This document shows positions 26,143 through 60,105 of a stretch of DNA of 64,000 nt, piece by piece. Each line of letters starts with the position of its first letter. The stretch's first letter is position 1. A model generated the notes under the pieces. The model ran no database searches. It worked only from the letters and a program-made list of their open reading frames with translations, and was not told the DNA's origin. The DNA is from an uncultured Bacteroidales bacterium (GTDB taxonomy: Bacteria > Bacteroidota > Bacteroidia > Bacteroidales > JAUNSR01): assembly GCA_947074145.1 (NCBI GenBank), contig CAMTOJ010000003.1:62001-126000 (forward strand). The letters are read 5' to 3'. The translations under genes and the position numbers were made by a program.

Positions 26143-28545
26143 CTATTTAATATCCCATTCATAAATACCTGCTGAATGTTTTTCAGGTAAGACAATCTCT
26201 ATTTTAACTGCTTTTGTCTTAACGGCATTGAAATTAACCTCATTAACATCTCCTTTTATTACGCCAAATTTATCTGCACCGGTCACAGGCTGCCAGTTAT
26301 TATTATTGTCTTTATAATAGATATTCCATGCAGCCGGTACTCTACATCCACCCCATGGAGCATCATCGTACCAAATTACAGAAGAACGAGAGATCTCTGT
26401 TTCATTTTCAAATTCATAAGTGATCCATTCTGTCGAATTATTTTTTGGCCACCAATGATAATAAGGCACAGAACGGTCGTTTTCATCTATTGGCAACATT
26501 CTGTCATTAATAGCAGTGATTGCACGAGCAGGATGAGAAGCGTCAACTTTACTTGAAGAGGCAAGAGTTGGTGCCATAAGCGGAGTTGTTGAACGAAGTT
26601 CATTAGGAAGCCAAACTAACATATTTCCCACTCCTCTATGATTCCATGAATAATATGGAATAAGAGTCAAGGTTACATCATTAGTAATAAGACGCCCTTC
26701 ATCATCAAAACCAAGAGTTTGGGCTTTAGTCTTAATCTGATTTATTCCGTAAAGAAGATTATCCATTTTGACAATCTCAAATTTTGGTTCACGGTTCATA
26801 AATACTGTTCTTACATCAAAATCATTATCAGGCCATTCGGCACAATAAACGATTGGTCCACGCTCTACCGACACACGACCTTTGTCTGCCTCTACTTTGG
26901 CATTAGCTCTGACAAGTCGTGGCTCCATATCAAGAGAAAGTTCCACTTTATCACCTTTTTTCCATTTACGGTCAATTGAGATATAACCATCTTTAATTAC
27001 CGGTTCAATTTTATTGCCGTTAAGTTTCACAGAATATGAAAGTCGTTTACCATCATTGAAAGTATAAAGATTGCTTGGTACAACAACGTTCTGAACCCAT
27101 CCGGGAAGACGAACCATCATATTAAAATCTGAAGCACTATTTCTTTCAACTTCTATCACGATATTACCTTCCCATGGATAATTAGTTGTTTGTTTAAGTC
27201 CAACTTTTTTCCCCTTTACATCAAGAGTCGATGTGTTTGACATAAAAAGATTCACATATACTTTTTGATCTTTCACGGCATATACATATCCCGGAACAGA
27301 AGGAATGAATCTTGCTACATTAGACGGACAACATGCGCATCCGAACCATGGTTGACGCTGATGCTGCCCCATTGATTCGAGTGGATTAGGATAGAAAAAT
27401 GATCCACCGTCAAGAGATACACCTGAAATAAGTCCGTTATAAAGAGTACGTTCTAAAACATCATAATATTTTGATTCTCCATGTAGAAGAAATAAGCGAT
27501 AGTTTAGATATACATTACCAATAGCAGCACATGTTTCACAATAAGCTGACATATTAGGAAGTTCGTAATTATCACCGAAAGCCTCTCCGTGAGCAGTAGC
27601 ACCGATTCCTCCTGTTATATAAAGTTTTTTTGATACAATATTATCCCAAATATTATCGATAGCCTTAATATATGTAGAGTCGCCTGTTAAGGCTGCTACA
27701 TCTGCCATTCCCGAATACATATAAGCGGCACGAACAGCGTGACCGACAGCCTCATCCTGATCTACTACAGGTTTATGAGCCTGACTGTATTCTCCTGTTC
27801 TTGTCGTATAACCACGTTTATCAAGAAAGAATTTAGCCTGATTAAGATATTTTTGATCACCGGTTACAAGATAAAGTTTGGCAAGTGCCATCTCTGCTAT
27901 CTGATGACCGGGAACAGCAACCGTTTGATTGGGATCCTCTCCAATCTCCCGACATACACAATCGGCATATTTAATAGCAATATCAAGGAAATTGCGTTTT
28001 CCGGTAGCTTGATAATGAGCAACGGCACCTTCAACCATATGACCTAAGTTATAGAATTCATGACTTAGATCTTCAACTTTTTCCCATCTGCAACTCCCTG
28101 CCCATTCATGAGGATGTTCTGGATTCATTGTTCTTGAGGTAAATAAATAGCCATCAGGTTCTTGAGCCGGACGCATAATATTTATAACACTGTCAATATA
28201 TTTTTCAAGTTTTTTGTTTGGATAGGTCTGTAGAGAATAACTTGCACCTTCGATGGTTTTATATACATCAGTATCGTCAAAAGAGAGTCCTTCTACTTTA
28301 TATTGGGAACTTGGATTTGCCGCTTTAATAAAGTTTTCATATCTGCCTGTTTCCTCACATTTACTGAATGCAAGAGGTATAGTAACCTTTCGACTAGCCT
28401 CAAGGCGTTGTCCCCAAAAAGAATCAGTAACTTTTACAGATGTAAAAGGAACAGGATTAATAGGATAACCATGATGGTTTGTTTTCGCTATTAAAGGGTT
28501 GAATACTCCAAATAACAGAGCACAATAAAGAGATTTCTTAATCAT
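26143..28545 (-). CDS. GH127 beta-L-arabinofuranosidase, periplasmic
   Basis: A DUF1680/GH127 enzyme of 800 residues that removes terminal beta-L-arabinofuranose with a cysteine nucleophile held by zinc. The signal peptide covers residues 1-20 (cut near LIAK). The (alpha/alpha)6 barrel starts at VPFTSVKVTDSFWGQRLE. Metal and catalytic residues are visible: Glu337 and Cys339 in CETCAAIGN, and Cys403, Cys405 and Cys406 in WFGCACCPSN. These correspond to the zinc site and nucleophile described for HypBA1. The C-terminal part (about 640-800: WITYEFENETEISRSSVIWYDD, VKIEIVLPEKHSAGIYEWDIK) resembles an F5/8-type binding domain. It is the last gene of the PUL operon, with a paralogue as the first. 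Confidence 0.93.
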   Translation of the reverse strand: MIKKSLYCALLFGVFNPLIAKTNHHGYPINPVPFTSVKVTDSFWGQRLEASRKVTIPLAFSKCEETGRYENFIKAANPSSQYKVEGLSFDDTDVYKTIEGASYSLQTYPNKKLEKYIDSVINIMRPAQEPDGYLFTSRTMNPEHPHEWAGSCRWEKVEDLSHEFYNLGHMVEGAVAHYQATGKRNFLDIAIKYADCVCREIGEDPNQTVAVPGHQIAEMALAKLYLVTGDQKYLNQAKFFLDKRGYTTRTGEYSQAHKPVVDQDEAVGHAVRAAYMYSGMADVAALTGDSTYIKAIDNIWDNIVSKKLYITGGIGATAHGEAFGDNYELPNMSAYCETCAAIGNVYLNYRLFLLHGESKYYDVLERTLYNGLISGVSLDGGSFFYPNPLESMGQHQRQPWFGCACCPSNVARFIPSVPGYVYAVKDQKVYVNLFMSNTSTLDVKGKKVGLKQTTNYPWEGNIVIEVERNSASDFNMMVRLPGWVQNVVVPSNLYTFNDGKRLSYSVKLNGNKIEPVIKDGYISIDRKWKKGDKVELSLDMEPRLVRANAKVEADKGRVSVERGPIVYCAEWPDNDFDVRTVFMNREPKFEIVKMDNLLYGINQIKTKAQTLGFDDEGRLITNDVTLTLIPYYSWNHRGVGNMLVWLPNELRSTTPLMAPTLASSSKVDASHPARAITAINDRMLPIDENDRSVPYYHWWPKNNSTEWITYEFENETEISRSSVIWYDDAPWGGCRVPAAWNIYYKDNNNNWQPVTGADKFGVIKGDVNEVNFNAVKTKAVKIEIVLPEKHSAGIYEWDIK

Positions 28546-42091: not shown

Positions 42092-44524
42092 TTACTTTAC
42101 TTTCCATTCCAAAATACCTCCGGATGCGTTTTTCTGTAACTGAGCCTCTATTCTTAATCCTGTGGTATTTATCGAATCGAAGTTTACTATATTATAGCAG
42201 TCCTTTTTTACACCTAATTGATCTTTACTTTTTACTTCTTTCCATTTATTGCCCTGTTTTGCATAAAGCTTCCAGCTTTCAGGCACTCTATAATTTCCGT
42301 CATAATGGTCAAGATCAAGCCAATAAACCTCTACACTTGATATCGTTTCAGGTTTTTCAAACTCATAAGCTATCGTTTCAAGCGTACCGACCTTTAACCA
42401 CCAGTAATGATAAGGTTTTGAAATATCGCTTGATGATTTAGGTTCCCATTGATCATTAACACCATCTGCCCATGTTTCTTGAGCTGCCGAAAGAGGTGCA
42501 TCTTTTTGTATTGCATTTTGAAACATAAAAGAACGAGCCTTTGAAGCAATAGTAGGCTGAGGTCTGCACAGTGCATAATTTTCACTATTTGGAATCCATA
42601 CTGCCATCTGATTGCGACCTCTATTATTCCATGTAGAATAAGGAATAGCTTTAAGTGTCACATCTTTTATATCCCCATCATCTTGAATCTCTTTCCCTTT
42701 AATATTAATAACGGTCACTCCGTTAAGTAATTCCTTTTCATAAGAGGTAGAGAACTGAGCATTCTCTGGAATATATTTGTTAAACACGTAATTATCTAAC
42801 TGATCATTACCCTCTATACAATATACAATAGGCCCCCTCTCTATAGATCTTTTCCCTATATTATCTTCAACTTTATCATTGGCTTTAACCTGTCTTACAT
42901 CCATAGGATAATCAACCTCAACAAGATCATTCTTGCTCCATACTCTGTTAAGTGTTATATAACCATCTACGACATTCGGTTTAATAGATTTACCATTAAG
43001 TTTAACGGTATATTTAGAACTTTTTTGAACATAAGAATACAAATCAGTAGCTATCGGTCTGTCATTTACCCATCCGGGAACCCTTAATCGCAATGCAAAA
43101 AGATCCTCTTTTTCAGGATTTATAATAAGTCTAACTTTTCCATCCCATGGAAATTCTGTTTTCTGTTCAAGAGAAATCTTGTTATCAATTGTTTCTATAT
43201 CAGAATTACTCTGTATATAAAGATTCACATATATATCATTCTTTTGAGTTGCATAAACATATTTGGGTATTGATGCAATAAATCTTGTCACATTACCCGG
43301 ACAACATGCACAACCAAACCACTTTTGTCTTTCATGTTGTCCCATTGATTCAAGAGGATTATCATAGAAAAATTTATCTCCGCTAAGTGATACTCCCGAT
43401 ATAACCCCATTGTATAATGATCTTTCCAAAACATCTACATATTTCGAATCTCCTGTTGATAAGAACATACGATGATTCCAATAAACATTGGCTATCGAAG
43501 CACATGTCTCACAGTAACCTGTGTGATTATTCAACTCATAATCAGGCCCAAAACCTTCTCCTTGAGGTCTTGACCCTATCCCTCCGGTTATATATAATTT
43601 TCGACCTGCCATGTTATCCCAGATCCGACAAAGAGCTTGGAAATAATTATCATCATTATTCAATACGGCGACATCCGCAACTCCCGAAAATAGGTATCCG
43701 GCTCTTACCGCATGTCCAACGATTTCATCTTGAAGAAGAATCGGTTTATGATCCTGACTATATTTATTTAATCTGTGTCCATCAGTACCTCGGCCGGTTT
43801 CCTCTACAAAATATTTGGCAAGTTCCAGATATCTTTTTTCGCCTGTTATTTTATAAAGTTTGGCAAGTCCCATTTCAACTATAGGATGTCCTGAGGGTAC
43901 ATGTTTTTGCCCCTCGTTAGGTCCAAAAACATTACATATCAAATCTGCATTTTTAAGAGCTACATCTAATAAAGATCTTTTCCCTGTGGCTTCATAATGT
44001 GCTACGGCAGCTTCATAAAGATGACCGCAATTATAAAGTTCATGACTATTGATTTTTTCCCATTTCGAACGACCCCACCATCCTGACAATCTCTCACATT
44101 TATTTGTAACACATGTAGTAAGATATCCATCCGCTTCTTGTGCTGATGATATTAATGTTATTACACTGTCTAAATAATGATCAAGATGTTCATCATATTT
44201 TACAGCCAAAGAATATGAAGCACCCTCTATTACTTTGTAAGGGTCGGTATCATCAAAAGAAAAGTCTCCTTGATGCTTTCCTTTTATTAATCCCCCGGCT
44301 AAAGCAAAATTGTCAAAACGTCCATTTTGCTCACACTCTTTTAATGCAGATGGTATTGAAACCGTTCTGTTTGTTTCTATTCGCGTTAACCAGAATGAAT
44401 CATTCAAACTGACTTTGGTAAAAGAAACCTCTTTTATTAATTCGTTTGGCTTCTTAAAAGAATCACTGCATGAACTAAAAAAAAGAATAGTTATTCCTGA
44501 AAATAATTTTAATGTGTAATTCAT
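42092..44524 (-). CDS. GH127 beta-L-arabinofuranosidase, lipoprotein
   Basis: The first gene of the PUL operon, an 810-residue paralogue of the enzyme at 26143-28545. It carries a lipobox (LFFSSC, about residue 19), so it is membrane-anchored, unlike its soluble paralogue. The zinc and catalytic residues are kept: Cys338, Glu339 and Cys341 in YCETCASIAN, and Cys405, Cys407 and Cys408 in WFGCACCPGN. The barrel start EVSFTKVSLNDSFWLTRIE and the C-terminal binding region (IAYEFEKPETISSVEVYWLDLDHYDGNYRVPESWKLYAK) match the paralogue. One may act at the surface and the other in the periplasm, or they may prefer different linkages; this is inference. Confidence 0.93.
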   Translation of the reverse strand: MNYTLKLFSGITILFFSSCSDSFKKPNELIKEVSFTKVSLNDSFWLTRIETNRTVSIPSALKECEQNGRFDNFALAGGLIKGKHQGDFSFDDTDPYKVIEGASYSLAVKYDEHLDHYLDSVITLISSAQEADGYLTTCVTNKCERLSGWWGRSKWEKINSHELYNCGHLYEAAVAHYEATGKRSLLDVALKNADLICNVFGPNEGQKHVPSGHPIVEMGLAKLYKITGEKRYLELAKYFVEETGRGTDGHRLNKYSQDHKPILLQDEIVGHAVRAGYLFSGVADVAVLNNDDNYFQALCRIWDNMAGRKLYITGGIGSRPQGEGFGPDYELNNHTGYCETCASIANVYWNHRMFLSTGDSKYVDVLERSLYNGVISGVSLSGDKFFYDNPLESMGQHERQKWFGCACCPGNVTRFIASIPKYVYATQKNDIYVNLYIQSNSDIETIDNKISLEQKTEFPWDGKVRLIINPEKEDLFALRLRVPGWVNDRPIATDLYSYVQKSSKYTVKLNGKSIKPNVVDGYITLNRVWSKNDLVEVDYPMDVRQVKANDKVEDNIGKRSIERGPIVYCIEGNDQLDNYVFNKYIPENAQFSTSYEKELLNGVTVINIKGKEIQDDGDIKDVTLKAIPYSTWNNRGRNQMAVWIPNSENYALCRPQPTIASKARSFMFQNAIQKDAPLSAAQETWADGVNDQWEPKSSSDISKPYHYWWLKVGTLETIAYEFEKPETISSVEVYWLDLDHYDGNYRVPESWKLYAKQGNKWKEVKSKDQLGVKKDCYNIVNFDSINTTGLRIEAQLQKNASGGILEWKVK

Positions 44525-44763: not shown

Positions 44764-47700
44764 ATGCTAAGAAAATATATACTTATAAATATCTTATTGA
44801 TATCAATATTTCATACTTTTTCAATTAATACTTCATCTGAATTAAAATTCAGACATCATTCAATTGATGACGGTATGCCATCTAATATTGTAAAAAGCTT
44901 AATTCAAACAAGAGACGGTTATATATGGATAGGTACAGAGTCAGGTTTATGTAGATTTGATGGGAACAAGTTTAAATTTTTCAATAAAAATTATATCAAG
45001 GATAAGGAATGGGATAATGATTATATTAATTATCTGTTCGAAGACAAAAAAAATAATCTATGGATAGGTACAGATATTGGAGCTTACTGTTATTCCTATG
45101 CGAACTCGGAATTTAATTCTTTTGATATTGTTACATCAAAAGGGATTAAAATAAATTCTCAAATAAATAGTATAAACGAAGATAATGACGGTAATATTTG
45201 GTTTTCCACTTTCGGTCAAGGGGTTTTCAAATATAATCAGGAACAAGAAGAACTGGAAAACTTTGAATTTAGTGAGACATCAGGCTTGATTAATCAAATA
45301 TATATAGATAGTTCAAATACTATTTGGGTAGTAAGTCGACATAACATCAACTTTTTATACAAATACAATAAATTACTAAACAGCTTCCAACAGTTTAATA
45401 CATATTATGAAAAGGATGCTGAAAAAAACGGATTCCTTTGTATCCTTCAGGAATCAGCTCGATATATATGGTTGGGTACATGGAATAAAGGATTACAAAA
45501 ATTAGATATCCAAACAGGAGCTATATCTCAAGTATTACCGAACCAAAGTCCATATTTTTTGTCGCATATTCACAGTTTAACTTATTATTCTGACGATATC
45601 TTACTAATAGGATCTGACGATGGGCTTTCATTTTATAATAAGGAAAATGGAGATTATAAATTAATCACTCCGGATGAAACTCAACCCTATTCAATCTCAG
45701 ATAAGTTTATATATCCTATTACTAAAGATAAAGAGGGTGGTATATGGATAGGTACTTATTATGGTGGAGTAAATTATTTGGCGCCAAATAATGGACAATT
45801 TTCAGCATATAATTATTCTAAATATAAGAATTCGGTAGGAGGAAAAATTATAAGCCGGTTTTGTGAAGATAATAACGGAAATATATGGATTGGCTCTGAT
45901 GATGGCGGACTTTCCTTGTTTAATCCAAAGACAGGGAAATTTTGTAATTACACAGTTTCTAAAAATTACAACTCTCTTTCTTATGCCAATGTACATTCTC
46001 TATGTATGGATGGTGATAATCTTTGGATTGGTACTTATACAGGCGGACTTAATATCCTTAATACTAAAACAGGTAAATTTAAGATATACAACTCAATCAC
46101 TGATGATGAAACGACACTTGACGGAAGTAGTATTTATGCTATTTTTAAAGACAAAGACAACGATATGTGGGCGACATCAATGTCTGGAGTAAATAAATAT
46201 GATCGTACAAAAGACAATTTTATACGTGTAAAGGATTTTGGTTTTATGACTATTGACATAGATCAAGACTTATCCGGAAATATTTGGTTTGCCACTCAAG
46301 GTAAAGGGCTTTTCAAATATAATGAACATGGTAATAGCTGGACTAACTATTCTGTTGAAAATGAAAAGAATTTCATTTTCAACAATATGGTAAATGATAT
46401 ACATATTATAAAAAATGAAATATGGGTAGCTACTTCTAAAGGATTAGCTATTTATAATAAAGAAAAAGATTGCTTCGAGAGATTTCTGCTTGAAACTGAT
46501 GTTGACAATATTTTAGGAATAACATCTGAGAGCAACACCTTATGGCTAACTACAACTTCAGGGTTGATTCATTTGAATCCGAAAACTAAAAAGATGCAGA
46601 TTTACACAAAAAGCGATGGTTTACAAAGCAATCAATTTCTGCCAGCTTCAATTCTTAAAACCTCTGATAATAAAATTTATATTGGCAGTGTTGATGGATT
46701 TAATGTGTTTTATCCCCAGAATATAAATATTAACAATCATATCCCACCTATTGTTATTACAGATTTCATTGTCATGAATAAAAATATACATTTCAATGAA
46801 AATGAAGCGGAGTTATCTTCGAAAGAGAATGTGTTTTCTTTTCATTTCGCATCTTTAAGCTATTGTACGCCGGTAAAAAATCAATTTATGTATAAACTTG
46901 AAGGTTTTGATAATGATTGGATAATGTGCGGAGATACAAAAATTGCGACTTATACAAATCTGCCCGCCGGTAATTATATTTTCAAAGTAAAAGGAACAAA
47001 TAGCGATGGAATATGGAATGAACAGGGAGCTACCTTTAAACTAACTATTTTGCCCCCTTTTTATATGCTACCGATTTTTAAATTATTGTATTTCCTGATC
47101 TCTCTAATTATTATTGTTTTAATATTAAAATTCTTCATTAATAAAACCAGAAGAGAACATAACGATAATATCATAAAGCTGAAAAAAGAGAATGAAGAAA
47201 CTATACAAAAATCAAGAATCCAATTTTTCACTATGATTGCTCATGAAATAAGAACTCCTGTTTCTCTTATTATAGGTCCGATGGAAAATATAATGAATGA
47301 TCTTGGGTCAATTCCAGAATCTTTCAAAGATGATCTTGAAATCATAAACCGTAACAGTAAAAGATTATTGACTCTTATAAATCAAATTCTTGATTTTAGG
47401 AAAGTGGAACAAGGTGAATTCTCTATAAATAAAAGATATCAAAATCTATCGACACTTATTGAACATGTAATTGTGAGATTCGCTCCCTCTGCAAAGCAAA
47501 AAGGTGTAAATATCGATTTCAATTCAAATAACAACAATCTTCTTGTCAATGTTGATCCTGAAGCGATAACAAAAGTTATAAGCAATCTTTTGAGTAATGC
47601 TCTAAAATTCACAAAAGACAATATTAATGTTAATCTGGAATATGTAGAAAATGAAAAGATTATTAAGATTGTAGTTTCTGATAATGGTTGTGGAATATCA

Positions 47701-48801
47701 AAAGAACAACAAAAAAAGATCTTCAATCCTTTTTATCAAACAGATTCCGGAATTAAAGAAAATGGAACCGGAATAGGTCTGCATATTGTCAAGACTCTTG
47801 TGAAAGCGCATGAGGGTAAAATATCATTGATATCAAATCTTGACAAAGGTTCATCATTTATTATATCAATTCCTTTTGAGAAAAAAAATATTTCTCAGGA
47901 TTTAATAAATAGTCTGAATAGTAGTGATTATAATGAAATGCTCAACGATGAACCAGTAGTAGAAGATATTGTTAAACAAACTGATTCAACTCAAAAGAAA
48001 ATACTTATTGTAGAGGACGATCCTGATATGCTTAGTTTTCTTGTTTCTAGTCTGAAGAATGATTTTATAATTTTGACCGCCGATAATGGAATAACCGCGC
48101 TTGAAGTTTTGGCAGACAATTCTGTTTCTTTAATTATTAGTGACTGGATGATGAAAAGTATGGATGGTATAACACTTTGCAAAAGTGTTCGTTCTGAAAG
48201 TAAGACAAGTCATATTCCTTTTATTATACTTACTGCACGTACTGACGATGGGTCGAAAGTAAAAAGTATGAAATCTGGAGCCGATATGCATATTGAAAAA
48301 CCTTTTTCAGTTCAGCATCTTAAAGCTTGTATCAACAATATACTCGACATTAGGTCTCAGCTACACCATAAATTATTTACTACTCCTCTGACTCCTATTG
48401 ATAGTATTGCTGAAAATGGTTCAGATGTAAAATTCTTATCAGACTTAAATAACATTATAGAGGAAAATTTCTCCTATAATGATTTATCGATTGATTTTAT
48501 TGCCTCAAAAATGAAAATTAGTCGTTCGGGGCTTTTTTCGAAAATAAAAACTATTACAGATTCTACTCCGAATGAATTAATTATGCTTATCAGAATGAAA
48601 AAAGCGGCTCAACTTCTATTAGAAAATAAATATCGTATAAATGAGATATGTTATATGGTGGGATTTAATAATCCTTCTTATTTCTCGAAATGTTTTCTTA
48701 AACAGTTTGGAGTAAAACCGCTCGACTTTGTCAATAATCATAAAAAAATCGCTGAAGAGGAAATAGTTTTTCCCACTGCAAGTTCTGATGCTCCTTGCTA
48801 G
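44764..48801 (+). CDS. Hybrid two-component system sensor-regulator (HTCS) of the PUL
   Basis: A 1345-residue one-protein signalling system. After a signal/anchor segment (1-22), 14 Reg_prop strands such as GYIWIGTESGLCRFDG and GNIWIGSDDGGLSLFN form two seven-bladed propellers (about 25-660). A Y_Y_Y domain (about 690-765) and one transmembrane helix (about 774-795) follow. The HisKA domain has the phospho-accepting His827 (MIAHEIRTP), and the HATPase has NLLSNALKF and DNGCGIS. A receiver domain (about 1080-1195) has Asp1127 in ISDWMMKSMDG, and an AraC-type helix-turn-helix (about 1230-1330) closes the protein. It is divergent from the PUL operon, whose breakdown products it should sense in the periplasm. 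The last codons (SSDAPC) lie in a long inverted repeat. Confidence 0.96.
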   Translation: MLRKYILINILLISIFHTFSINTSSELKFRHHSIDDGMPSNIVKSLIQTRDGYIWIGTESGLCRFDGNKFKFFNKNYIKDKEWDNDYINYLFEDKKNNLWIGTDIGAYCYSYANSEFNSFDIVTSKGIKINSQINSINEDNDGNIWFSTFGQGVFKYNQEQEELENFEFSETSGLINQIYIDSSNTIWVVSRHNINFLYKYNKLLNSFQQFNTYYEKDAEKNGFLCILQESARYIWLGTWNKGLQKLDIQTGAISQVLPNQSPYFLSHIHSLTYYSDDILLIGSDDGLSFYNKENGDYKLITPDETQPYSISDKFIYPITKDKEGGIWIGTYYGGVNYLAPNNGQFSAYNYSKYKNSVGGKIISRFCEDNNGNIWIGSDDGGLSLFNPKTGKFCNYTVSKNYNSLSYANVHSLCMDGDNLWIGTYTGGLNILNTKTGKFKIYNSITDDETTLDGSSIYAIFKDKDNDMWATSMSGVNKYDRTKDNFIRVKDFGFMTIDIDQDLSGNIWFATQGKGLFKYNEHGNSWTNYSVENEKNFIFNNMVNDIHIIKNEIWVATSKGLAIYNKEKDCFERFLLETDVDNILGITSESNTLWLTTTSGLIHLNPKTKKMQIYTKSDGLQSNQFLPASILKTSDNKIYIGSVDGFNVFYPQNININNHIPPIVITDFIVMNKNIHFNENEAELSSKENVFSFHFASLSYCTPVKNQFMYKLEGFDNDWIMCGDTKIATYTNLPAGNYIFKVKGTNSDGIWNEQGATFKLTILPPFYMLPIFKLLYFLISLIIIVLILKFFINKTRREHNDNIIKLKKENEETIQKSRIQFFTMIAHEIRTPVSLIIGPMENIMNDLGSIPESFKDDLEIINRNSKRLLTLINQILDFRKVEQGEFSINKRYQNLSTLIEHVIVRFAPSAKQKGVNIDFNSNNNNLLVNVDPEAITKVISNLLSNALKFTKDNINVNLEYVENEKIIKIVVSDNGCGISKEQQKKIFNPFYQTDSGIKENGTGIGLHIVKTLVKAHEGKISLISNLDKGSSFIISIPFEKKNISQDLINSLNSSDYNEMLNDEPVVEDIVKQTDSTQKKILIVEDDPDMLSFLVSSLKNDFIILTADNGITALEVLADNSVSLIISDWMMKSMDGITLCKSVRSESKTSHIPFIILTARTDDGSKVKSMKSGADMHIEKPFSVQHLKACINNILDIRSQLHHKLFTTPLTPIDSIAENGSDVKFLSDLNNIIEENFSYNDLSIDFIASKMKISRSGLFSKIKTITDSTPNELIMLIRMKKAAQLLLENKYRINEICYMVGFNNPSYFSKCFLKQFGVKPLDFVNNHKKIAEEEIVFPTASSDAPC

Positions 48802-49752: not shown

Positions 49753-49817
49753 TAAAAAATCAGCTGTCGATGCACCCAAAAAATCGGTACATTGATAAAA
49801 GAATAAAAGTTTTCATT

Positions 49818-51650
49818 ATGAAACATGAATTGAGAAGTGCTCAAAGCACACAGGGAAGAAGAATGGCAGGTGCAAGATCATTGTGGCGTGCCAACGGGAT
49901 GAAAGAAGATATGATAGGGAAACCTATCATTGCAATCGTTAATTCTTTTACTCAATTTGTACCGGGACATGTGCATTTACATGAGATCGGCCAGCAAGTG
50001 AAACAAGAGATTGAAAAATTAGGCTGTTTCGCAGCTGAATTTGATACCATAGCCATTGACGACGGAATTGCAATGGGTCACGACGGGATGCTTTATTCGT
50101 TACCCTCGAGAGATTTGATTGCAGATAGCGTTGAATATATGGTTAATGCTCATAAAGCTGATGCGATGGTTTGCATTAGTAATTGCGACAAGATCACTCC
50201 GGGGATGCTTATGGCTGCAATGCGACTAAATATTCCGGCTGTTTTCGTTTCGGGCGGACCAATGGAAGCAGGTAGAATGGGCGACAAACGACTTGATCTA
50301 ATCGATGCTATGATACAGGCTGCCGATAAAACGGTTGATGATGCAACGGTGAGAGAGGTTGAAAATGCAGCTTGTCCAACTTGTGGAAGTTGTTCGGGAA
50401 TGTTTACGGCAAACTCAATGAATTGTCTTAATGAAGTACTTGGTATGGCATTGCCCGGTAATGGGACAATAGTTGCTACTCATAAGAACAGAAAACTTTT
50501 GTTTGAGAAGGCAGCAAAACAAATAGTAGAAAATACGTATAGATATTACAGAGACGGAGATGAAAGCGTACTACCGCGTTCAATAGCTAAAAGAGAAGCA
50601 TTTCTCAACTCTATGACTCTGGATATAGCAATGGGCGGATCAACAAACACTATCCTTCACCTGCTTGCAATAGCGAATGAGGCAGGTGTGGATTTCACGA
50701 TGGAAGACATCCATCATCTTTCTTTAAAAACTCCGGTTCTATGTAAAGTGGCGCCAAATACTCAGAAATATCACATCGAAGATGTAAACAGAGCCGGAGG
50801 TATTCTTTCAATAATGGGAGAACTTGATAAAAAAGGATTGGTTCACAGAGAAGTATCACGCGTTGATAATCTTTCTCTTGGTGAAGCAATCGAAAAATAC
50901 TCTCTTGGCAGTGACAAGGTTAGCGATGAAGCAAAAGAATTATGGCACTCTGCGGCAGCAGGTAAGTTCAATCTTGTGCTTGGTTCTCAGGATGCAAAAT
51001 TTGAAACTCTTGACACTGACAGAAAAGAGGGTTGTATCAGAGATTTTGACAATGCTTATGTAAAAGATGGCGGTCTTGCCATATTAAGAGGAAATATAGC
51101 ACAAGACGGTTGTGTGGTGAAAACTGCCGGTGTCGATCCTTCGATATTCAAATTCAAAGGAACAGCAAGAGTATTTCAGTCTCAAGATGATGCATGTGAA
51201 GGTATATTGGGAGGAAAAGTGAACAGCGGCGACGTTGTAGTTATCACCTATGAGGGACCAAAAGGTGGTCCGGGAATGCAGGAAATGCTCTACCCTACTT
51301 CGTATATCAAATCACGACATCTTGGTAAAGAATGTGCTCTTATTACTGATGGTAGATTCTCAGGTGGTACATCAGGCCTTTCAATAGGTCATATATCTCC
51401 AGAGGCAGCAGCCGGAGGAAATATAGCACTTGTCAGAGACAACGATCTTATAGAAATAGATATTGAGAAGCGTTCTATAAACGTGCTTGTCAGCGATGAA
51501 GAACTTGAAAATCGCAGAAAAGAGGAACTGGAGCGTGGAAATAAGGCTTTTACGCCAACAACAAGAAACAGAGTTATATCAAAAGCTCTTAAGGCATATG
51601 CTAAAATGGTTAGTTCTGCCGATAAAGGGGCAGTAAGAATTGTAGATTAG
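49818..51650 (+). CDS. ilvD: Dihydroxy-acid dehydratase
   Basis: IlvD removes water from 2,3-dihydroxy-isovalerate and 2,3-dihydroxy-3-methylvalerate, the third step of Val/Ile synthesis, with an Fe-S cluster. I chose the ATG at 49818 (610 residues, [25 protein letters not shown]), since the upstream in-frame codons lie just after the attenuator and do not match the family. Cluster cysteines are in [11 protein letters not shown] and [18 protein letters not shown]. The conserved [21 protein letters not shown] segment near the C-terminus is intact. It is the first structural gene of ilvD-ilvB-ilvN-thioesterase-ilvC. Confidence 0.97.
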
Positions 51651-51668
51651 TACTAAAAACTAAAAGTG

Positions 51669-53372
51669 ATGGAGAAAATTACAGGATCTGAGGCTCTTAT
51701 AAGATCATTACTTGAAGAGAACGTTAAGACGGTTTTCGGTTATCCGGGAGGGCAAATAATGCCTGTATTCGATAAACTTTACGATTACACGGATAAACTT
51801 AAACATATACTTGTCAGACATGAACAGGGTGCGGTACATGCCGCTCAAGGATTTGCACGTGTTAGTGGAGATGTAGGCGTAGTCCTTGTCACTTCCGGAC
51901 CGGGAGCAACAAATGTGATAACAGGCGTTGCAGATGCAATGATAGACTCTACTCCCCTTGTCGTCATCACCGGACAGGTGCCGTCGCCTTTATTGGGAAC
52001 GGATGCTTTTCAGGAAACAGACGTAGTGGGTATCACTTTGCCTATTACAAAATGGAGTTACCAGATTCAATCGGCAGATGAGATACCATGGGCAATAGCA
52101 AGAGCATTTTATATCGCTCGTAGTGGTCGTCCGGGCCCTGTTGTGATTGATTTTCCTAAAAATGCACAGATAGGAATGATGAACTTCGATTACAAAAAAT
52201 GTGATTTCATCAGAAGTTATCGTCCTGTTCCGCATACAGATCCGCACTCTTTGATTCAGGCTGCGTCAATGATCAATAAGGCAGAAAAGCCTTTTATTAT
52301 ATTTGGTCAGGGAATAGTATTATCGGAGGCAGAAAAGGAATTGAAACATCTTATCGAAAAAACAGGAATACCTGCGGCTTCGACTCTTTTAGGCTTGTCG
52401 GCTCTACCTTCCGATTATAAACAATATAAAGGAATGGTTGGAATGCACGGAAATCTGGGTCCTAATAAAAAGACTAATGAGTGTGATGTGCTTATCGCTA
52501 TAGGTATGCGTTTCGACGACAGAGTCACAAGCGATATAAATACTTATGCCAAACAGGCAAAAGTGATCCATATAGATATCGATCCTTCTGAAATAGGTAA
52601 AAATGTACCTGCTAACATTGGTATTCTTGGAAATGCTAAAGATGTGCTTCAAAAGCTTATTCCGATGCTTGAAAAAAGAGAATTTAAGCAATGGAGCAAT
52701 GAGTTTGATGAACTTAACGAAATAGAGAATCAGAAAGTTATAATACCGGAAACTTTACCCACAGATGGCGACCTTAATATGGGAGAAGTTGTTGCTAAAG
52801 TTTCGGAACTTACCAATAATAATGCTATCATAGTGACTGACGTTGGTCAGAATCAGATGATGGCGGCAAGATATTCGAAATTCAATAATACGAGAAGTTT
52901 CGTTTCTTCGGGAGGACTCGGAACAATGGGATTCGGTCTGCCGGCTGCAATAGGAGCGAAAATAGCATCACCAGATAAACATGTTTGTTTCTTTACCGGA
53001 GACGGAGGAATACAGATGACTATTCAGGAACTGGGGACTATACTTCAGGAAAATACAGGTGTTAAGATTATTATTCTTAATAATTCGTGGTTGGGTATGG
53101 TGCGTCAGTGGCAGGAGCTATTCTTCGAGGAAAGATATTCCGAAACATCGATGAAAAATCCTAATTTCATCGCTCTTGCGGCAGCTTACGGAATTAAAGG
53201 TCGTAAGGTTGAGAAAAGAGAGGATCTTGATGGGGCTATAAAAGAGATGCTTTCAGATAATGAGCCTTTCCTTCTTGAAGTGAATGTGATAGAAAAAGGT
53301 ATGGTTTTCCCGATGATTCCGGGAGGAAAATGTGTATCTAAGATGATGTTAACAACAACTGAATGGCATTAA
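51669..53372 (+). CDS. ilvB: Acetolactate synthase large (catalytic) subunit
   Basis: This ThDP-dependent enzyme joins two pyruvates, or pyruvate and 2-oxobutyrate, in the first committed step of branched-chain synthesis. The ATG at 51669 gives 567 residues; a GTG one codon earlier is an alternative. The catalytic Glu is in VRHEQGAVHAAQGFARVSG, the central FAD-binding domain is present (LIAIGMRFDDRVT), and the ThDP motif starts at GDGGIQMTIQEL and ends at NNSWLGMVRQWQ. It starts 18 bases after ilvD, and the regulatory subunit gene follows after 1 base. Confidence 0.97.
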   Translation: MEKITGSEALIRSLLEENVKTVFGYPGGQIMPVFDKLYDYTDKLKHILVRHEQGAVHAAQGFARVSGDVGVVLVTSGPGATNVITGVADAMIDSTPLVVITGQVPSPLLGTDAFQETDVVGITLPITKWSYQIQSADEIPWAIARAFYIARSGRPGPVVIDFPKNAQIGMMNFDYKKCDFIRSYRPVPHTDPHSLIQAASMINKAEKPFIIFGQGIVLSEAEKELKHLIEKTGIPAASTLLGLSALPSDYKQYKGMVGMHGNLGPNKKTNECDVLIAIGMRFDDRVTSDINTYAKQAKVIHIDIDPSEIGKNVPANIGILGNAKDVLQKLIPMLEKREFKQWSNEFDELNEIENQKVIIPETLPTDGDLNMGEVVAKVSELTNNNAIIVTDVGQNQMMAARYSKFNNTRSFVSSGGLGTMGFGLPAAIGAKIASPDKHVCFFTGDGGIQMTIQELGTILQENTGVKIIILNNSWLGMVRQWQELFFEERYSETSMKNPNFIALAAAYGIKGRKVEKREDLDGAIKEMLSDNEPFLLEVNVIEKGMVFPMIPGGKCVSKMMLTTTEWH

Positions 53373-53373
53373 T

Positions 53374-53946
53374 ATGGAAGAGAATAAAATAAATAATGAG
53401 GAAGTTACACTATATACCGTAACGGTATATTCTGAAAACCAGGTTGGTTTGCTGAATCAGGTTTCCATAATTTTCACCAGAAGGAATTTGAATATCTGGA
53501 GTCTTTCTGTTTCAGCGTCTGCAATAGAGGGTGTTCACAAGTTTACAATTACGACTCATACTACAAGGAGTCAGATTGAGAAAGTTGTGAAACAGATCGA
53601 GAAAAGAATCGATGTTTTAAAAGCTTTCTATTATACAAATGATCAAATAATACATCAGGAGATTGCTCTTTATAAGGTAGAAACCGAGAAGCTCCTGGAA
53701 AGTGATGAAATAGAAGATCTTATCAGAAAACATAATGCACGTATTCTTGAAATTAATAAGATATTCACGGTAATCGAAAAAACAGGTCATTGTGAAGAAA
53801 CGGGTGCTTTGTTTGATGATCTTAATAAATATGGAGTGCTTCAGTTCGTCAGATCGGGACGTATTGCCATAACAAAAGACAGAACAGAACATGTTTCTAT
53901 ATTTCTTGAGGAACAAGAAGTACGTAGATTGAAAGAAAAGATGTAA
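53374..53946 (+). CDS. ilvN: Acetolactate synthase small (regulatory) subunit
   Basis: The 190-residue subunit carries feedback inhibition by valine. The N-terminal ACT domain (about 10-85) has LYTVTVYSENQVGLLNQVSIIFTRRNLNIWSLSVS, and a C-terminal ALS_ss_C domain (about 100-175) ends with LQFVRSGRIAITK. It is slightly longer than the enterobacterial IlvH, as is usual in Bacteroidales. Spacing of 1 base after ilvB implies translational coupling. Confidence 0.95.
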   Translation: MEENKINNEEVTLYTVTVYSENQVGLLNQVSIIFTRRNLNIWSLSVSASAIEGVHKFTITTHTTRSQIEKVVKQIEKRIDVLKAFYYTNDQIIHQEIALYKVETEKLLESDEIEDLIRKHNARILEINKIFTVIEKTGHCEETGALFDDLNKYGVLQFVRSGRIAITKDRTEHVSIFLEEQEVRRLKEKM

Positions 53947-53970
53947 CATTGCATTTATTTTAATTAAAGT

Positions 53971-54708
53971 ATGGAAGAGAGTCTTTTTTTAGGCGTTACC
54001 CAATATAAGGTATATTATAATTTGTTGAATGCAGAGGGCGAAATGCCGGTTTCACAAATAGCCGAGTCTTTAATTAATTCAGCTTCACATCACGCTTACA
54101 GATTAGGGGTTGGTTTTAATAATTTGATCAAAAACAATCATACCTGGGTTCTTGCCCGTATGGCTATTGAGATGAAACGATATCCTAAAGCTGAAGAAAC
54201 ATTGGTGATAGAGACCTGGATTGAGGATTTTAATAAACTCTTTACGTCAAGAAATATGCGACTTCTGACTTCAGAGGGTGAAGAACTTGGTTTTTGCAGA
54301 ACGATATGGTCGATTATCAATTATCAAACAAGAGAATCTCAAGATCTGACACAGTACAGAGACATCCCAAAACTGATAAACGACAGGCCATGTCCTATAA
54401 ATAAACCGGGAAGAATACCTACTGCAATAGATGAAGATCCTATACTTTATAGAGTTAAATATAGTGATCTGGATATAAACAGACACATGACAAGTTCGAA
54501 ATATATTGAGCATATGCTTGATGGTTTCTCACTTGATACATTCGACAACCAAAGAGTTGGCAGATTTGAAATTCATTATATCAATGAGGCCCTTTATGGT
54601 GACGAAATAAAAATTTTAAAACAAAAAACAAAAGAGGGTGAATATATCATGGAAATGAAAACCAATGAAGGAAACACTCTTTGTAAAAGCAGAATAATCT
54701 TTATATAA
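53971..54708 (+). CDS. Acyl-ACP thioesterase (FatA-like)
   Basis: The 245-residue protein has two tandem hot-dog domains, as in acyl-ACP thioesterases. The first domain (about 5-130) includes TWVLARMAIEMKRYPKAEETLVIETWIEDFNKLFTSRNMRLL; the second (about 150-245) starts RVKYSDLDINRHMTSSKYIEHMLDGF. The D-x-N-x-H motif of the second domain carries the Asn and His of the active site. It releases fatty acids from acyl carrier protein in the cytoplasm. Its place between ilvN and ilvC is shared by many Bacteroidales. A link to branched-chain fatty acid synthesis from the same 2-oxo acids is plausible but inferred. Confidence 0.9.
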   Translation: MEESLFLGVTQYKVYYNLLNAEGEMPVSQIAESLINSASHHAYRLGVGFNNLIKNNHTWVLARMAIEMKRYPKAEETLVIETWIEDFNKLFTSRNMRLLTSEGEELGFCRTIWSIINYQTRESQDLTQYRDIPKLINDRPCPINKPGRIPTAIDEDPILYRVKYSDLDINRHMTSSKYIEHMLDGFSLDTFDNQRVGRFEIHYINEALYGDEIKILKQKTKEGEYIMEMKTNEGNTLCKSRIIFI

Positions 54709-54730
54709 ACTTTTTAAATATTTAATCAAA

Positions 54731-55777
54731 ATGGCTATAATGAATTTTGGTGGTGTTGAAGAAAATGTACGCACACGTGAAGAATTTCCATTGGAAAAGG
54801 CAAGAGAAGTATTAAAAGACGAAACTATCGCTGTAATCGGTTATGGAGTTCAGGGTCCTGGTCAGGCTTTAAATCTTCGTGATAATGGATTTAACGTTAT
54901 CGTTGGACAACGTAAGGATTCTAAAACATGGGATAAAGCGGTTGCTGACGGATGGGTTCCGGGTGAAACTCTTTTTGATATCGATGAAGCTTGCCAAAGA
55001 GGTACAATTATTCAATATTTGCTATCTGATGCTGCTCAAATCGCAGTATGGCCAACAGTAAAGAAAAATCTTACACCAGGTAAGGCTCTTTATTTCTCTC
55101 ATGGTTTTGCAGTAACTTACAAAGAAAGAACAGGTATCATCCCTCCTGCTGATGTTGATGTTATCCTTGTTGCTCCTAAAGGATCAGGTACATCTCTTCG
55201 TAGAATGTTCCTTCAGGGTCGTGGTCTTAACTCTTCATTTGCAATCTTCCAAGATGCAACAGGAAAAGCTCTTGATCGCGTAGTAGCTCTTGGTATCGGT
55301 GTAGGTTCAGGTTACCTATTCGAAACAACTTTCAAAAGAGAAGTTTACTCTGACCTTACAGGTGAACGTGGTACTCTTATGGGTGCTATCCAGGGTATCT
55401 TCGCTGCTCAATATGAAGTTCTTCGTGAAAACGGACATACTCCTTCTGAAGCATTCAACGAAACAGTTGAAGAACTTACACAATCTCTTATGCCTCTTGT
55501 TGCTGAAAACGGTATGGATTGGATGTATGCAAACTGTTCAACTACTGCTCAAAGAGGTGCTCTTGATTGGTGGGGACCTTTCCATGATGCAACTAAACCA
55601 GTGTTCGAAAAACTTTATTCTGAAGTAGCTTGTGGAAATGAAGCTCAACGTTCAATCGACTTGAATTCTAAAGCTGATTACCGCGAAAAACTTGAAGAAG
55701 AACTTAAAGAACTTCGTGAAAGCGAAATGTGGAGAACAGGTGCTGTTGTTCGTAAACTTCGTCCTGAAAATAACTAA
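54731..55777 (+). CDS. ilvC: Ketol-acid reductoisomerase
   Basis: IlvC performs the second step of Val/Ile synthesis: alkyl migration and NADPH-dependent reduction of acetolactate. The 348-residue protein has the Rossmann loop IGYGVQGPGQALNLRDNG, the HGFAV segment, VAPKGSGTSLRRMF, and the Mg-binding helices with SDLTGERGTLMGAIQG and TSSKADY-like NSKADYRE near the end. Its codon use is visibly more uniform (many CTT, GAA, CGT) than that of the neighbours, fitting high expression. It closes the operon and is followed by a terminator. Confidence 0.97.
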   Translation: MAIMNFGGVEENVRTREEFPLEKAREVLKDETIAVIGYGVQGPGQALNLRDNGFNVIVGQRKDSKTWDKAVADGWVPGETLFDIDEACQRGTIIQYLLSDAAQIAVWPTVKKNLTPGKALYFSHGFAVTYKERTGIIPPADVDVILVAPKGSGTSLRRMFLQGRGLNSSFAIFQDATGKALDRVVALGIGVGSGYLFETTFKREVYSDLTGERGTLMGAIQGIFAAQYEVLRENGHTPSEAFNETVEELTQSLMPLVAENGMDWMYANCSTTAQRGALDWWGPFHDATKPVFEKLYSEVACGNEAQRSIDLNSKADYREKLEEELKELRESEMWRTGAVVRKLRPENN

Positions 55778-57126: not shown

Positions 57127-60105
57127 ATGGATAACATGAAAAAAGAGAAGACAGACAGCCTGTCGGATCTTCTGCTTAAAGACACTTCGTTTGCCAATCT
57201 TATGCAATCGCGAATCTATAATGTGCTTTTGATAGCCAGTAAATATGATACGTTCATGCTTGAAGATGACGGACGAGTTGACGAGAATATATTTATTGAA
57301 TATTCTCAACTTAATCTGCGCTATCCTCCCAGATTTACACAAGTTTCCTCTGATTCGGAAGCTCTTGAGGAACTTCATAATAGAAGGTATGATTTGATTA
57401 TATCAATGCCTACAAATCAAGATAATATCGTTTTTGAAACATCAAGAGAGATAAAAAATATTTTTCCAGATATCCCAATCGTTTCACTTACGCCATTTTC
57501 AGGTAAAATGTATGAAAAGATGAATAATACCGATCTTTCATCTATTGATTATATATTCAGTTGGCTTGGAAACACAGATCTTTTATTAGCAATAATAAAA
57601 CTTATAGAGGACAAAATGAATATCGAACAAGATGTGGAATCGGTAGGAGTTCAAGTTATTTTACTTGTAGAGGATTCTATTCGATTTTATTCATCTCTTC
57701 TACCCCATATTTATAAGTTCATTCTTAAACAATCACAAGAATTTTCAACAGAAGCACTTAACGAACATCAGAAAATGCTTCGTATGAGAGGACGTCCTAA
57801 AATAATACTTACAAGAGATTTTGAAGAGGCGAAACAAGTATATGATAAGTATAAAAACAATATGCTTGGTGTGATTACAGATGTTAGTTTTCCCAAGAAT
57901 GGAAAGGAGAATAAGACTTCCGGCTTTGAGCTTTGTGAATATATAAGATCAAAAGATCCTTTTATTCCCGTGATTATTCAGTCATCGGAGATTGAAAATA
58001 AAGAGAAAGCGAATCTTTATAATGCAGTATTTCTTGATAAACAATCAAAAAAACTTCCTCTTGATCTTCGCGAAACTATATTAAATAAGTTTGGTTTCGG
58101 AGCTTTTGTATTTATCGACCCCGAAACAAAAAAAGAGATAGTGACTGTCAATAATCTTAAGGAACTTCAGGATCAATTATCTATGATTCCTGATAAGTCT
58201 TTGTATTATCATGGTTCACATAATCATATATCACGTTGGCTATATTCACGTGCTATGTTTCCGCTTGCTGAGTTCGTCAGAAATAAATCATACGATTGTA
58301 TTGAGCAGGTTCCCGAGATGAGAAAGATAATCTTCGAGGCAATAGTTCAATATAGAAAAATGAAAAATCGAGGTATCGTTGCAGAATTTAAGCGTGGAAG
58401 ATTTGACAGATATTCAAATTTTGCTCGTATCGGAGATGGATCTCTGGGAGGTAAAGGTCGCGGACTTGCCTTTATCGATGCTATGATTAAAAGAAATATG
58501 AATCTACAATCTTTTGAAAATGCGACCATATCAATACCAAAGACATTAGTCTTATGTACCGATCTTTTTGACGATTTTATGGAGAGTAATTCTCTTTATC
58601 AGGTTGGTCTAAGCGATCTTCCTGATGAAGATATTTTGCGATATTTTTTAAGAGGAAAGCTTAAAACTGATTTGATTGAAGATTTTATGGCCTTTTTCGA
58701 AGTAGTAAAATCGCCTGTTGCCATCAGATCATCAAGCTTACTTGAAGATTCACACTATCAGCCTTTTGCCGGTATATATTCAACTTATATGATACCTTAT
58801 CTTGAGGATAAATATGAGATGCTTCGACTCGTCAGCGATGCTATAAAGGGAGTATATGCGTCTGTGTTTTATAAGGGAAGTAAAGCTTATATGAATGCAA
58901 CAAGCAACTTGATTGATCAGGAAAAGATGGCTGTTATAATACAGGAGGTTGTAGGTAGCCAATATGACAATAAATATTATCCCTCTTTTTCGGGTGTAGC
59001 GAGATCTATTAATTATTATCCTATCAATAGTGAGTTGCCGGAAGAAGGAATTGCGAATATTGCTGTCGGACTTGGAAAATATATAGTAGATGGAGGTATT
59101 ACTCTTAGGTTTTCACCTTTTTGGCCATCTAATGTTTTACAAACAAGTACTCTCGATCTTGCTTTAAAGGATACACAGACAAGATTTATGGCATTGGATC
59201 TGAATTCTCTTAATAATAATATAACTATTGATGATGGAGCAAATCTTCTGAAATTGTCTATCAGAGATGGCGAAAATGATGATTCTATCAGATCAATGGT
59301 TTCAACATTTGATCCGCATGATGTGATGATACATGACGGTTATTATGAGGGAGGAAGAAAAGTAGTGACTTTTTCTTCAATTCTGAAACACGAATCCTTT
59401 CCGTTATCAGAGATTCTTAAAGAGGTTTTAAGTACCGGAAGCAGGGAGATGGCCAGACCTATTGAGATAGAGTTTGCAGTGAATCTTAATGATTATTCGG
59501 GTATTCCTGCTTTTTACTGGCTTCAGATCAGACCTATTGTTGATTCAAAGGAGATGTCAGATGAAGATATTTCCGGTGTTGATCCTCAGTCTTGTTTATT
59601 ATACTCAAATAATGCTCTTGGACATGGAAAAATAAAAGATATATCACATATAGTCTATATTAAGACCGATAAATTCACTTCATCCAAAAATCCGCAAATT
59701 GCCAGGGAAGTTGAATATGTGAATGACGATTTTGTTGCAATGAATAAAAATTATGTCTTAGTTGGGCCGGGTCGATGGGGTTCAGAAGATTATTTTCTTG
59801 GAGTACCTGTAAAATGGCCTCATATATCGCAAGCAAAGGTTATCATAGAAACAACATTACAAAACTATCGTATAGAACCGAGTCAAGGGACACATTTCTT
59901 TCAGAATATGACATCACTTGGTGTTGGTTATTTTTCGGTAAGTCCGGAAAACAATGATGGTATATTCTGTAAAGAACAACTTGATAAGATGCCTGCGATA
60001 ATGGAATCAGATTTTGTAAGAGTTGTTGAATTTCCTTCATCACTTGATATTAAAATCAATGCATCTAAAAAAATAGGATTTGTTCGTTATACTGATGATG
60101 ATTAA
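57127..60105 (+). CDS. Two receiver-like domains fused to a PPDK-type ATP-grasp domain
   Basis: The 992-residue protein starts with a degenerate receiver fold (about 28-170), where Ser93 in YDLIISMPT stands in place of the phospho-accepting Asp. A second receiver (about 175-320) keeps the active residues: Glu182/Asp183 (LLVEDS), Asp252 (GVITDVSF) and Lys305 (FLDKQ). Then comes a pyruvate phosphate dikinase N-terminal, PEP/ATP-binding-like region (about 430-820) with ARIGDGSLGGKGRGLAF, SPVAIRSSSLLEDSHYQPFAGIYSTY and EIEFAVNL...FYWLQIRPI. A C-terminal domain has VLVGPGRWGSEDYFLGVPVKWPHIS. The His-carrying and PEP-binding TIM-barrel domains of PPDK are absent, so it cannot be a complete PEP synthase. 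I infer a phosphorylation-controlled ATP-dependent transferase or ligase of unknown substrate. Confidence 0.85.
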   Translation: MDNMKKEKTDSLSDLLLKDTSFANLMQSRIYNVLLIASKYDTFMLEDDGRVDENIFIEYSQLNLRYPPRFTQVSSDSEALEELHNRRYDLIISMPTNQDNIVFETSREIKNIFPDIPIVSLTPFSGKMYEKMNNTDLSSIDYIFSWLGNTDLLLAIIKLIEDKMNIEQDVESVGVQVILLVEDSIRFYSSLLPHIYKFILKQSQEFSTEALNEHQKMLRMRGRPKIILTRDFEEAKQVYDKYKNNMLGVITDVSFPKNGKENKTSGFELCEYIRSKDPFIPVIIQSSEIENKEKANLYNAVFLDKQSKKLPLDLRETILNKFGFGAFVFIDPETKKEIVTVNNLKELQDQLSMIPDKSLYYHGSHNHISRWLYSRAMFPLAEFVRNKSYDCIEQVPEMRKIIFEAIVQYRKMKNRGIVAEFKRGRFDRYSNFARIGDGSLGGKGRGLAFIDAMIKRNMNLQSFENATISIPKTLVLCTDLFDDFMESNSLYQVGLSDLPDEDILRYFLRGKLKTDLIEDFMAFFEVVKSPVAIRSSSLLEDSHYQPFAGIYSTYMIPYLEDKYEMLRLVSDAIKGVYASVFYKGSKAYMNATSNLIDQEKMAVIIQEVVGSQYDNKYYPSFSGVARSINYYPINSELPEEGIANIAVGLGKYIVDGGITLRFSPFWPSNVLQTSTLDLALKDTQTRFMALDLNSLNNNITIDDGANLLKLSIRDGENDDSIRSMVSTFDPHDVMIHDGYYEGGRKVVTFSSILKHESFPLSEILKEVLSTGSREMARPIEIEFAVNLNDYSGIPAFYWLQIRPIVDSKEMSDEDISGVDPQSCLLYSNNALGHGKIKDISHIVYIKTDKFTSSKNPQIAREVEYVNDDFVAMNKNYVLVGPGRWGSEDYFLGVPVKWPHISQAKVIIETTLQNYRIEPSQGTHFFQNMTSLGVGYFSVSPENNDGIFCKEQLDKMPAIMESDFVRVVEFPSSLDIKINASKKIGFVRYTDDD

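Follow-up and report, generated by a model that had tools for sequence, protein, structure and literature searches.

A receiver-fused, dikinase-like protein of Bacteroidales linked by gene neighbourhood to glutamate dehydrogenase: a candidate two-component-controlled phosphotransferase

What might a protein do that carries two response-regulator receivers in front of the ATP-binding domain of pyruvate phosphate dikinase (PPDK), and has no phosphoenolpyruvate (PEP)/pyruvate barrel behind it? This question is raised by the gene at positions 57127-60105 (+) of a 64,000-nucleotide stretch (the window) from an uncultured Bacteroidales bacterium (GCA_947074145.1, contig CAMTOJ010000003.1, positions 62,001 to 126,000). 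We report that this gene and its homologues, here called Q, repeatedly lie beside genes for glutamate dehydrogenase (GDH), the enzyme that gut and environmental Bacteroidales mainly use to assimilate ammonia. With a probability of roughly 0.4 our data suggest that Q is a two-component-controlled dikinase-type phosphotransferase, that is, a receiver-gated phosphohistidine relay, that regulates GDH. Residue numbers refer to the 992-residue protein of the window gene and nucleotide positions to the window.

The initial annotation had proposed a search for homologues and their gene neighbours; carried out here, it revealed a wide family and a conserved GDH linkage, both of which that annotation had missed. 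Gene context was studied on 87 locus maps with 187 immediate neighbour genes, and 104 family genes were scored for adjacency. The commonest immediate neighbour was GDH (50 of the 187 genes, at 38 loci), the next family reaching 8; GDH was directly adjacent to 44 of the 104 family genes and within 7 kb of 55. The family has five architectures: types A and B (receiver-receiver-PPDK_N, ~990-1010 residues), type C (an extra N-terminal GAF-like stretch before receiver-receiver-PPDK_N, ~1160 residues), type D (PPDK_N and the C-terminal domain only, 580-595 residues) and type E (a GAF-like N-terminus, PPDK_N, the C-terminal domain and a nucleotidyltransferase domain, ~1060 residues); "GAF-like" was read from the sequence only, Pfam reporting no GAF in the members scanned. 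Adjacency was seen in 18/60 genes of type A, 18/25 of B, 5/13 of C, 1/2 of D and 2/4 of E. For type A the expectation is ~0.15%, giving a binomial probability of 1e-36, which is optimistic given shared ancestry. Across the five architectures GDH lies upstream or downstream of Q and in codirectional, divergent or convergent orientation. Moreover, the linked GDHs come from several clades, and beside types B, D and E they include the distant GDH-2 type (one representative per GDH type was confirmed with Pfam); the adjacency is therefore not one inherited accident. At a deltaproteobacterial locus GDH, Q595 and Q1065 follow each other consecutively, and four loci (L066, L067, L069 and L071) carry arrays of the order gdh-Q-kinase-NarL regulator-gdh-Q-gdh. 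Taken together, a functional link of Q to GDH is likely. As a separate observation, hisG/hisD-like genes adjoin the cluster in L067, L069, L068 and L082.

Type E members stand at GDH-2 loci (L068:2805-5987(-), L082:7965-11153(-), L081:16846-19998(+) and L005:9727-12924(+)); they keep the C-terminal domain with its GPGRWGS motif and His923, and their last domain is a nucleotidyltransferase (NTP_transf_2 in the one member that was scanned). Type E is possibly a second, nucleotidylating branch of GDH control.

The linkage bears on an older genetic result, in that a trans-acting gene for gdhA activity in B. thetaiotaomicron is, going by its title, the subject of an earlier paper (Baggio & Morrison 1996, J Bacteriol 178:7212). 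In Bacteroides-type genomes Q is found either between gdhA and gdhB or next to them: the order in L179 (G491) is maeB-gdhA-katA-Q-gdhB (katA read from sequence), and in L077 and L169 Q is directly downstream of gdhA, convergent with it at a distance of 84 bp. The gdhA gene alone is said to be inactive in E. coli and to have become active with a separate 3-kb downstream segment, in which insertions were reportedly unobtainable in B. thetaiotaomicron; the reported length of this segment is about that of the Q gene. For B. fragilis, reversible inactivation of GDH in vivo was reportedly described in 1987, and we do not rely on it. Published work assigns a malic enzyme to BT1969 (PMC8865466) and a catalase to BT_1971 (PMC4595636, PMC12596196). 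Since these names fit the order in L179, we infer that Q is BT_1972 of B. thetaiotaomicron, between gdhA (BT_1970) and gdhB (BT_1973); because of its position between or beside the two gdh genes, Q is our leading candidate for the trans-acting factor encoded downstream of gdhA. Other candidates were rejected: in Parabacteroides, genes for a nucleotidyltransferase and a RapZ-like protein are found downstream of one gdh, but not there in the Phocaeicola and Bacteroides-type layouts examined, and katA intervenes in L179; neither of these follows gdh from layout to layout in the way that Q does. In a Parabacteroides locus (L035:12988-16199) genes for an endonuclease/phosphatase, a nucleotidyltransferase and a RapZ-like protein (APH and RapZ C-terminal) stand between Q and a second gdh. 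Among open-licence full texts we found no paper on BT1972 or on GDH phosphorylation in Bacteroides.

The window gene is a single open frame (ATG at 57127, stop at 60103-60105), as originally described with respect to coordinates, frame and length. Its features are as follows.

57127-60105, + strand: whole gene, 992 residues, with two receivers, a helical linker, PPDK_N and the predicted carrier domain
57214-57621, + strand: receiver 1, degenerate, residues ~30-165 (approximate range, from conservation and the alternating strand/helix pattern of the AlphaFold2 (AF2) model)
57403-57405, + strand: Ser93 of receiver 1 at the phospho-Asp position, with Trp146 at the Lys position
57649-58101, + strand: receiver 2, intact, residues ~175-325 (Glu182/Asp183, Asp252 at 57880-57882, Ser286 and Lys305)
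58141-58416, + strand: linker domain, residues ~339-430, with weak DUF5752 similarity
58441-59571, + strand: PPDK_N ATP-grasp domain, residues 439-815 (Lys443, Arg534, Glu780/Glu782, Gln800 and Arg802)
59548-60102, + strand: C-terminal domain, residues 808-992, predicted to be a diverged phosphohistidine (swivelling) carrier domain
59764-59784, + strand: GPGRWGS motif in the C-terminal domain
59893-59895, + strand: His923, proposed phosphoryl acceptor, the sole histidine invariant in 104/104 homologues

The nucleotide-binding part of PPDK had been described as kept, and this was borne out. PPDK_N (PF01326) matched with an E-value of 6e-38 and 131 bits (cut-off 27), and VIA superposed model residues 416-810 on rifampin phosphotransferase (RPH) 5hv1 with a Z-score of 20.1. 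None of the ATP-binding residues is lost in the alignment: Lys443, Arg534, Glu782 and Gln800 are identical in all 104 homologues, which go down to ~25-30% identity, while position 780 is Glu or Asp and 802 Arg or Lys; the PPDK counterparts of these residues we take to be K22, R92, D321, E323, Q335 and R337. The complete set of positions identical in 104/104 homologues comprises Lys443, Arg534, Glu540, Glu782, Gln800, Gly882, Arg883, Trp884, Asp888, Ser919, Gly921, His923, Phe924 and Phe925. For the PEP/pyruvate-binding TIM barrel (PF02896) Pfam gave no match, and the chain stops at residue 992, past the carrier domain. Because the barrel is absent from the chain, the phosphate acceptor must come in trans. 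A profile of seven sequences searched against the PDB reached PEP synthases and rifampin phosphotransferase at E-values between 1e-9 and 1e-5 and receivers at 0.007, and single-sequence phmmer of the 992-residue protein against solved structures gave no match. The linker scored 14.7 bits (E 0.02) with DUF5752 (PF19027), below the curated cut-off of 23; relatives scored higher (E 1e-4 and 7e-4, at most 21.8 bits), which is still below it.

All phosphotransfer parts had been thought to be missing. This stands for the barrel, but it is probably wrong for the phosphohistidine part, as residues 808-992 model as a carrier domain with His923. Modelled alone they reached a pLDDT of 84 and a pTM of 0.85. 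Among solved structures VIA matched them best to 2fm4, the isolated phosphoryl carrier domain of PPDK (Z 6.5, rmsd 3.5, 112 residues), which by its title and range covers PPDK residues ~385-511. Carrier domains of PPDK, RPH (764-867) or Enzyme I, or the related C-terminal domain of pyruvate kinase, fill most of the first 14 VIA rows. In the full-length AF2 model, which has a moderate pLDDT of 67, residues 414-989 superpose on residues 13-467 of PEP synthase 2ols (Z 18.7), and the same stretch matches PPDK 1dik 3-510 at Z 17.1 and RPH 5hv3 at Z 19.6; with moderate confidence we read this as an ATP domain plus a carrier domain, colinear with PEP synthase/PPDK. His923 opens a helix (922-930) between strands 903-909 and 934-938 in the model of residues 808-992 and is preceded by Thr or Ser in 104/104 homologues. 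This helix start matches the site of the catalytic histidine in the PPDK motif TSH-AAVVARG, which is visible in the alignment. Sequence comparisons gave weak signals: the alignment of the family profile to 2ols runs past the ATP domain and reaches the first part of the central domain (i-E 0.27), and hhalign gave a weak match to the first strand there (E 0.029). The models thus point, with moderate confidence, to a phosphohistidine-carrier fold, and we lean towards His923 being the catalytic phosphohistidine.

With respect to the receivers, the initial annotation had given the second one as intact and the first as having Ser93 for Asp, and both points hold in the family. The site of receiver 2 is almost invariant in the 98 receiver-bearing homologues (types A to C), with Asp252 and Lys305 in 98/98, Asp183 in 96/98 and Ser286 nearly always present. 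Pfam Response_reg (PF00072) on residues 215-301 scored 28.7 bits, just below the cut-off of 30.2, and the solved fold nearest to the modelled receiver 2 is the PorX receiver (Z ~12 over 115-118 residues). The phospho-Asp position of receiver 1 never holds Asp in these homologues (Thr, Ser, Cys, Ala or Val, and Ile, Leu or Phe in type C), and Trp146 replaces the usual Lys in 98/98. The region gave a significant receiver match in the relative at L066 (E 9e-7) and was not separately resolved in the window protein. We propose that receiver 1 is a structural pseudo-receiver, and the invariance of the ATP-site and receiver 2 residues speaks for a working ATP enzyme under the control of receiver 2.

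No kinase gene adjoins Q in the window, as had been noted; the nearest among the listed open reading frames is a hybrid two-component regulator (44764-48801) with its own receiver and DNA-binding domain, as read from its sequence. The partner is, however, not always elsewhere, because several distant relatives have a kinase and a NarL-type regulator within the cluster or next to it. The kinase of the above arrays, with the domains PAS-HisKA_3, may serve as phosphodonor to receiver 2.

In the mechanism that we favour, a histidine kinase encoded elsewhere would phosphorylate Asp252 of receiver 2, and this would alter where the catalytic half sits or how active it is. As happens in PPDK, PEP synthase and rifampin phosphotransferase, the ATP-grasp domain would then charge His923 in the swivelling C-terminal domain, and the phosphoryl group would be handed to an acceptor in trans. 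The most likely acceptor is GDH or a ligand bound to it, and GDH activity would thereby be switched. The phosphorylation of receiver 2 and the charging of His923 are deduced from the conservation of catalytic residues. We infer that the phosphorylation state is the switch and that GDH, singled out by gene linkage, is the acceptor. The last step is the most tentative, direct covalent modification of GDH by Q being somewhat unlikely when taken by itself. Equally doubtful is the full proposal of a new kind of post-translational metabolic control, in which a relay without a substrate domain of its own phosphorylates or pyrophosphorylates GDH, lets a two-component signal set ammonia assimilation at the level of the enzyme without transcription, and is the missing trans-acting gene for B. 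thetaiotaomicron gdhA.

Several observations weigh against a GDH-directed relay. As many as 42 of the 60 type A genes are not immediately next to GDH, and the window gene is one of these, the single GDH of its genome being on another contig (C22). In its congener G475 (L085) GDH is divergent from Q and 121 bp apart, and the linkage has for this reason probably been lost at the window locus. Among the 26 Bacteroidales genomes without a Q match at least 20 still have GDH, so GDH does not need Q everywhere and strict co-occurrence of the two was rejected. Concerning the carrier domain, the PF00391 HMM had no match to the C-terminal domain in the Pfam scan or in a PF00391 search of the window's own genome, sequence profiles do not reach PF00391, hmmsearch against the PDB gave nothing convincing for this domain, and Foldseek alone gave no match to it at E 0.001; moreover, the carrier-domain Z-score of ~6 is modest and under the tool's clear level of 8. 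As proof failed at the sequence level, the case for the carrier domain rests on structure together with the invariant histidine.

The same linkage data would also fit a nucleotide-sensing pseudo-dikinase, whose ATP-grasp half senses ATP/ADP/AMP and whose receiver senses a two-component signal, and which, once bound to GDH, would alter the activity or assembly of GDH with no transfer of phosphate. The missing acceptor domain and a carrier domain without the normal TSHAA surroundings speak for it, but an ATP site and a His923 that are kept in 104/104 homologues at such low identity go beyond the needs of a binding-only role, and we regard it as rather unlikely. A metabolic enzyme that phosphorylates a small molecule near GDH (2-oxoglutarate, glutamate, or an ammonia-related or pyruvate/malate-branch metabolite), with the linkage reflecting a common pathway and not regulation of the GDH protein, is unlikely as well, and a little more so. 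Most PPDK_N relatives (PEP synthase, RPH and PigC) act on small molecules, and Q is surrounded by maeB, gdhA and gdhB in Bacteroides-type genomes; Q has, however, no acceptor-binding domain, its fused receivers, GAF-like or nucleotidyltransferase domains are typical of regulators, and the GDH-specific linkage extends to another phylum. That the linkage is merely transcriptional or historical and Q acts on something else is improbable: many type A members, including the window gene, are unlinked, but the adjacency recurs in varied orientations, with different GDH clades and in five architectures. Finally, an ordinary PEP synthase/PPDK with a regulatory N-terminus would agree with the PPDK_N match and with the NCBI name of these proteins, PEP/pyruvate-binding domain-containing protein. 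Against this, the barrel is absent, the best NCBIfam PEP synthase model gave 50.5 bits where its equivalog cut-off is 883 (598-883 across the models), and another contig of the window's genome carries a PPDK-like gene of its own, which matches PPDK_N and PEP-utilizers; this very improbable reading was rejected on architecture and scores.

With the window protein as query, Q or a paralogue was found in 172 of 198 evenly drawn Bacteroidales genomes, in 37/37 high-quality genomes of one genus (Bacteroides by inference) and, with some receiver-only matches, in 59 of 296 genomes across the phylum. Among named relatives, the closest found is a Paludibacter metagenome-assembled genome (59% protein identity). 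The Bacteroidales genomes that lack Q are in many cases small (1.2-2.7 Mb), and in the tree several of the GDHs they encode group with each other; these could be a Q-independent form of GDH. The few partial differences in GDH residues that track the presence of Q are confounded by phylogeny and were not used as evidence.

The genome of the window (3.71 Mb draft, 95% complete) has one copy of Q. Its sole GDH (G000:C22:32316-33050) belongs to the gdhA clade, and a gdhB-type gene, which stands beside Q in G475, was not found in this draft. Upstream of Q in the window are ilvD-ilvB-ilvN-thioesterase-ilvC and a PHP-type phosphatase gene, and downstream is dnaE (names read from sequence). The ilv genes (49770-55777) thus include a thioesterase-like gene, of the acyl-ACP type, inside a branched-chain amino acid operon. 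A polysaccharide-utilisation-type cluster (26143-48801) holds SusC/SusD-like genes, the hybrid two-component regulator and, at 26143-28545 and 42092-44524, a pair of glycoside hydrolase-like proteins that resemble each other.

If the favoured reading is true, a near-universal and unstudied GDH regulator would explain the old Bacteroides genetic result, and Q would be a rare example of direct control of a central metabolic enzyme by a two-component system, via a dikinase-type phosphohistidine relay. A vaguely annotated protein is thereby turned into a testable hypothesis. In the open-licence full texts we found no function, GDH linkage or carrier-domain identity for the family. The combination of receiver and PPDK domains is itself already known: a survey of aspartate-less receivers (ALR) lists pyruvate phosphate dikinases among the associated effector domains and relates the ALR-PPDK fusions to plant C4 metabolism, and no function, GDH link or carrier domain was found there (PMC4395418). 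Like PPDK and PEP synthase (PF01326, PF00391 and PF02896), Q has an ATP-grasp domain with the key ATP residues followed, in the same order, by a modelled phosphohistidine carrier; it differs in having no PEP/pyruvate barrel, a carrier undetected by PF00391 and added N-terminal receivers. RPH provides the best structural match of the ATP domain and also matches the carrier domain, but Q lacks the rifampin-binding domain between the two. The Q model also matched HpeI 9goj (Z 15.5). In the split phenylphosphate synthase/HpeI systems, whose substrate is a phenol, the dikinase ATP domain is apart from the acceptor-binding part and transfer occurs between polypeptides; these systems have no receivers, whereas Q does, and to our knowledge they have no link to GDH. 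GlnD and GlnE exert covalent control on glutamine synthetase, another ammonia-assimilation enzyme. Here the likeness is by analogy only, the controlled enzyme being different and the dikinase part not homologous, while type E Q ends in a nucleotidyltransferase domain. Compared with these systems, Q would be a dikinase-type phosphotransfer enzyme, which is a known kind, put to a potentially new use.

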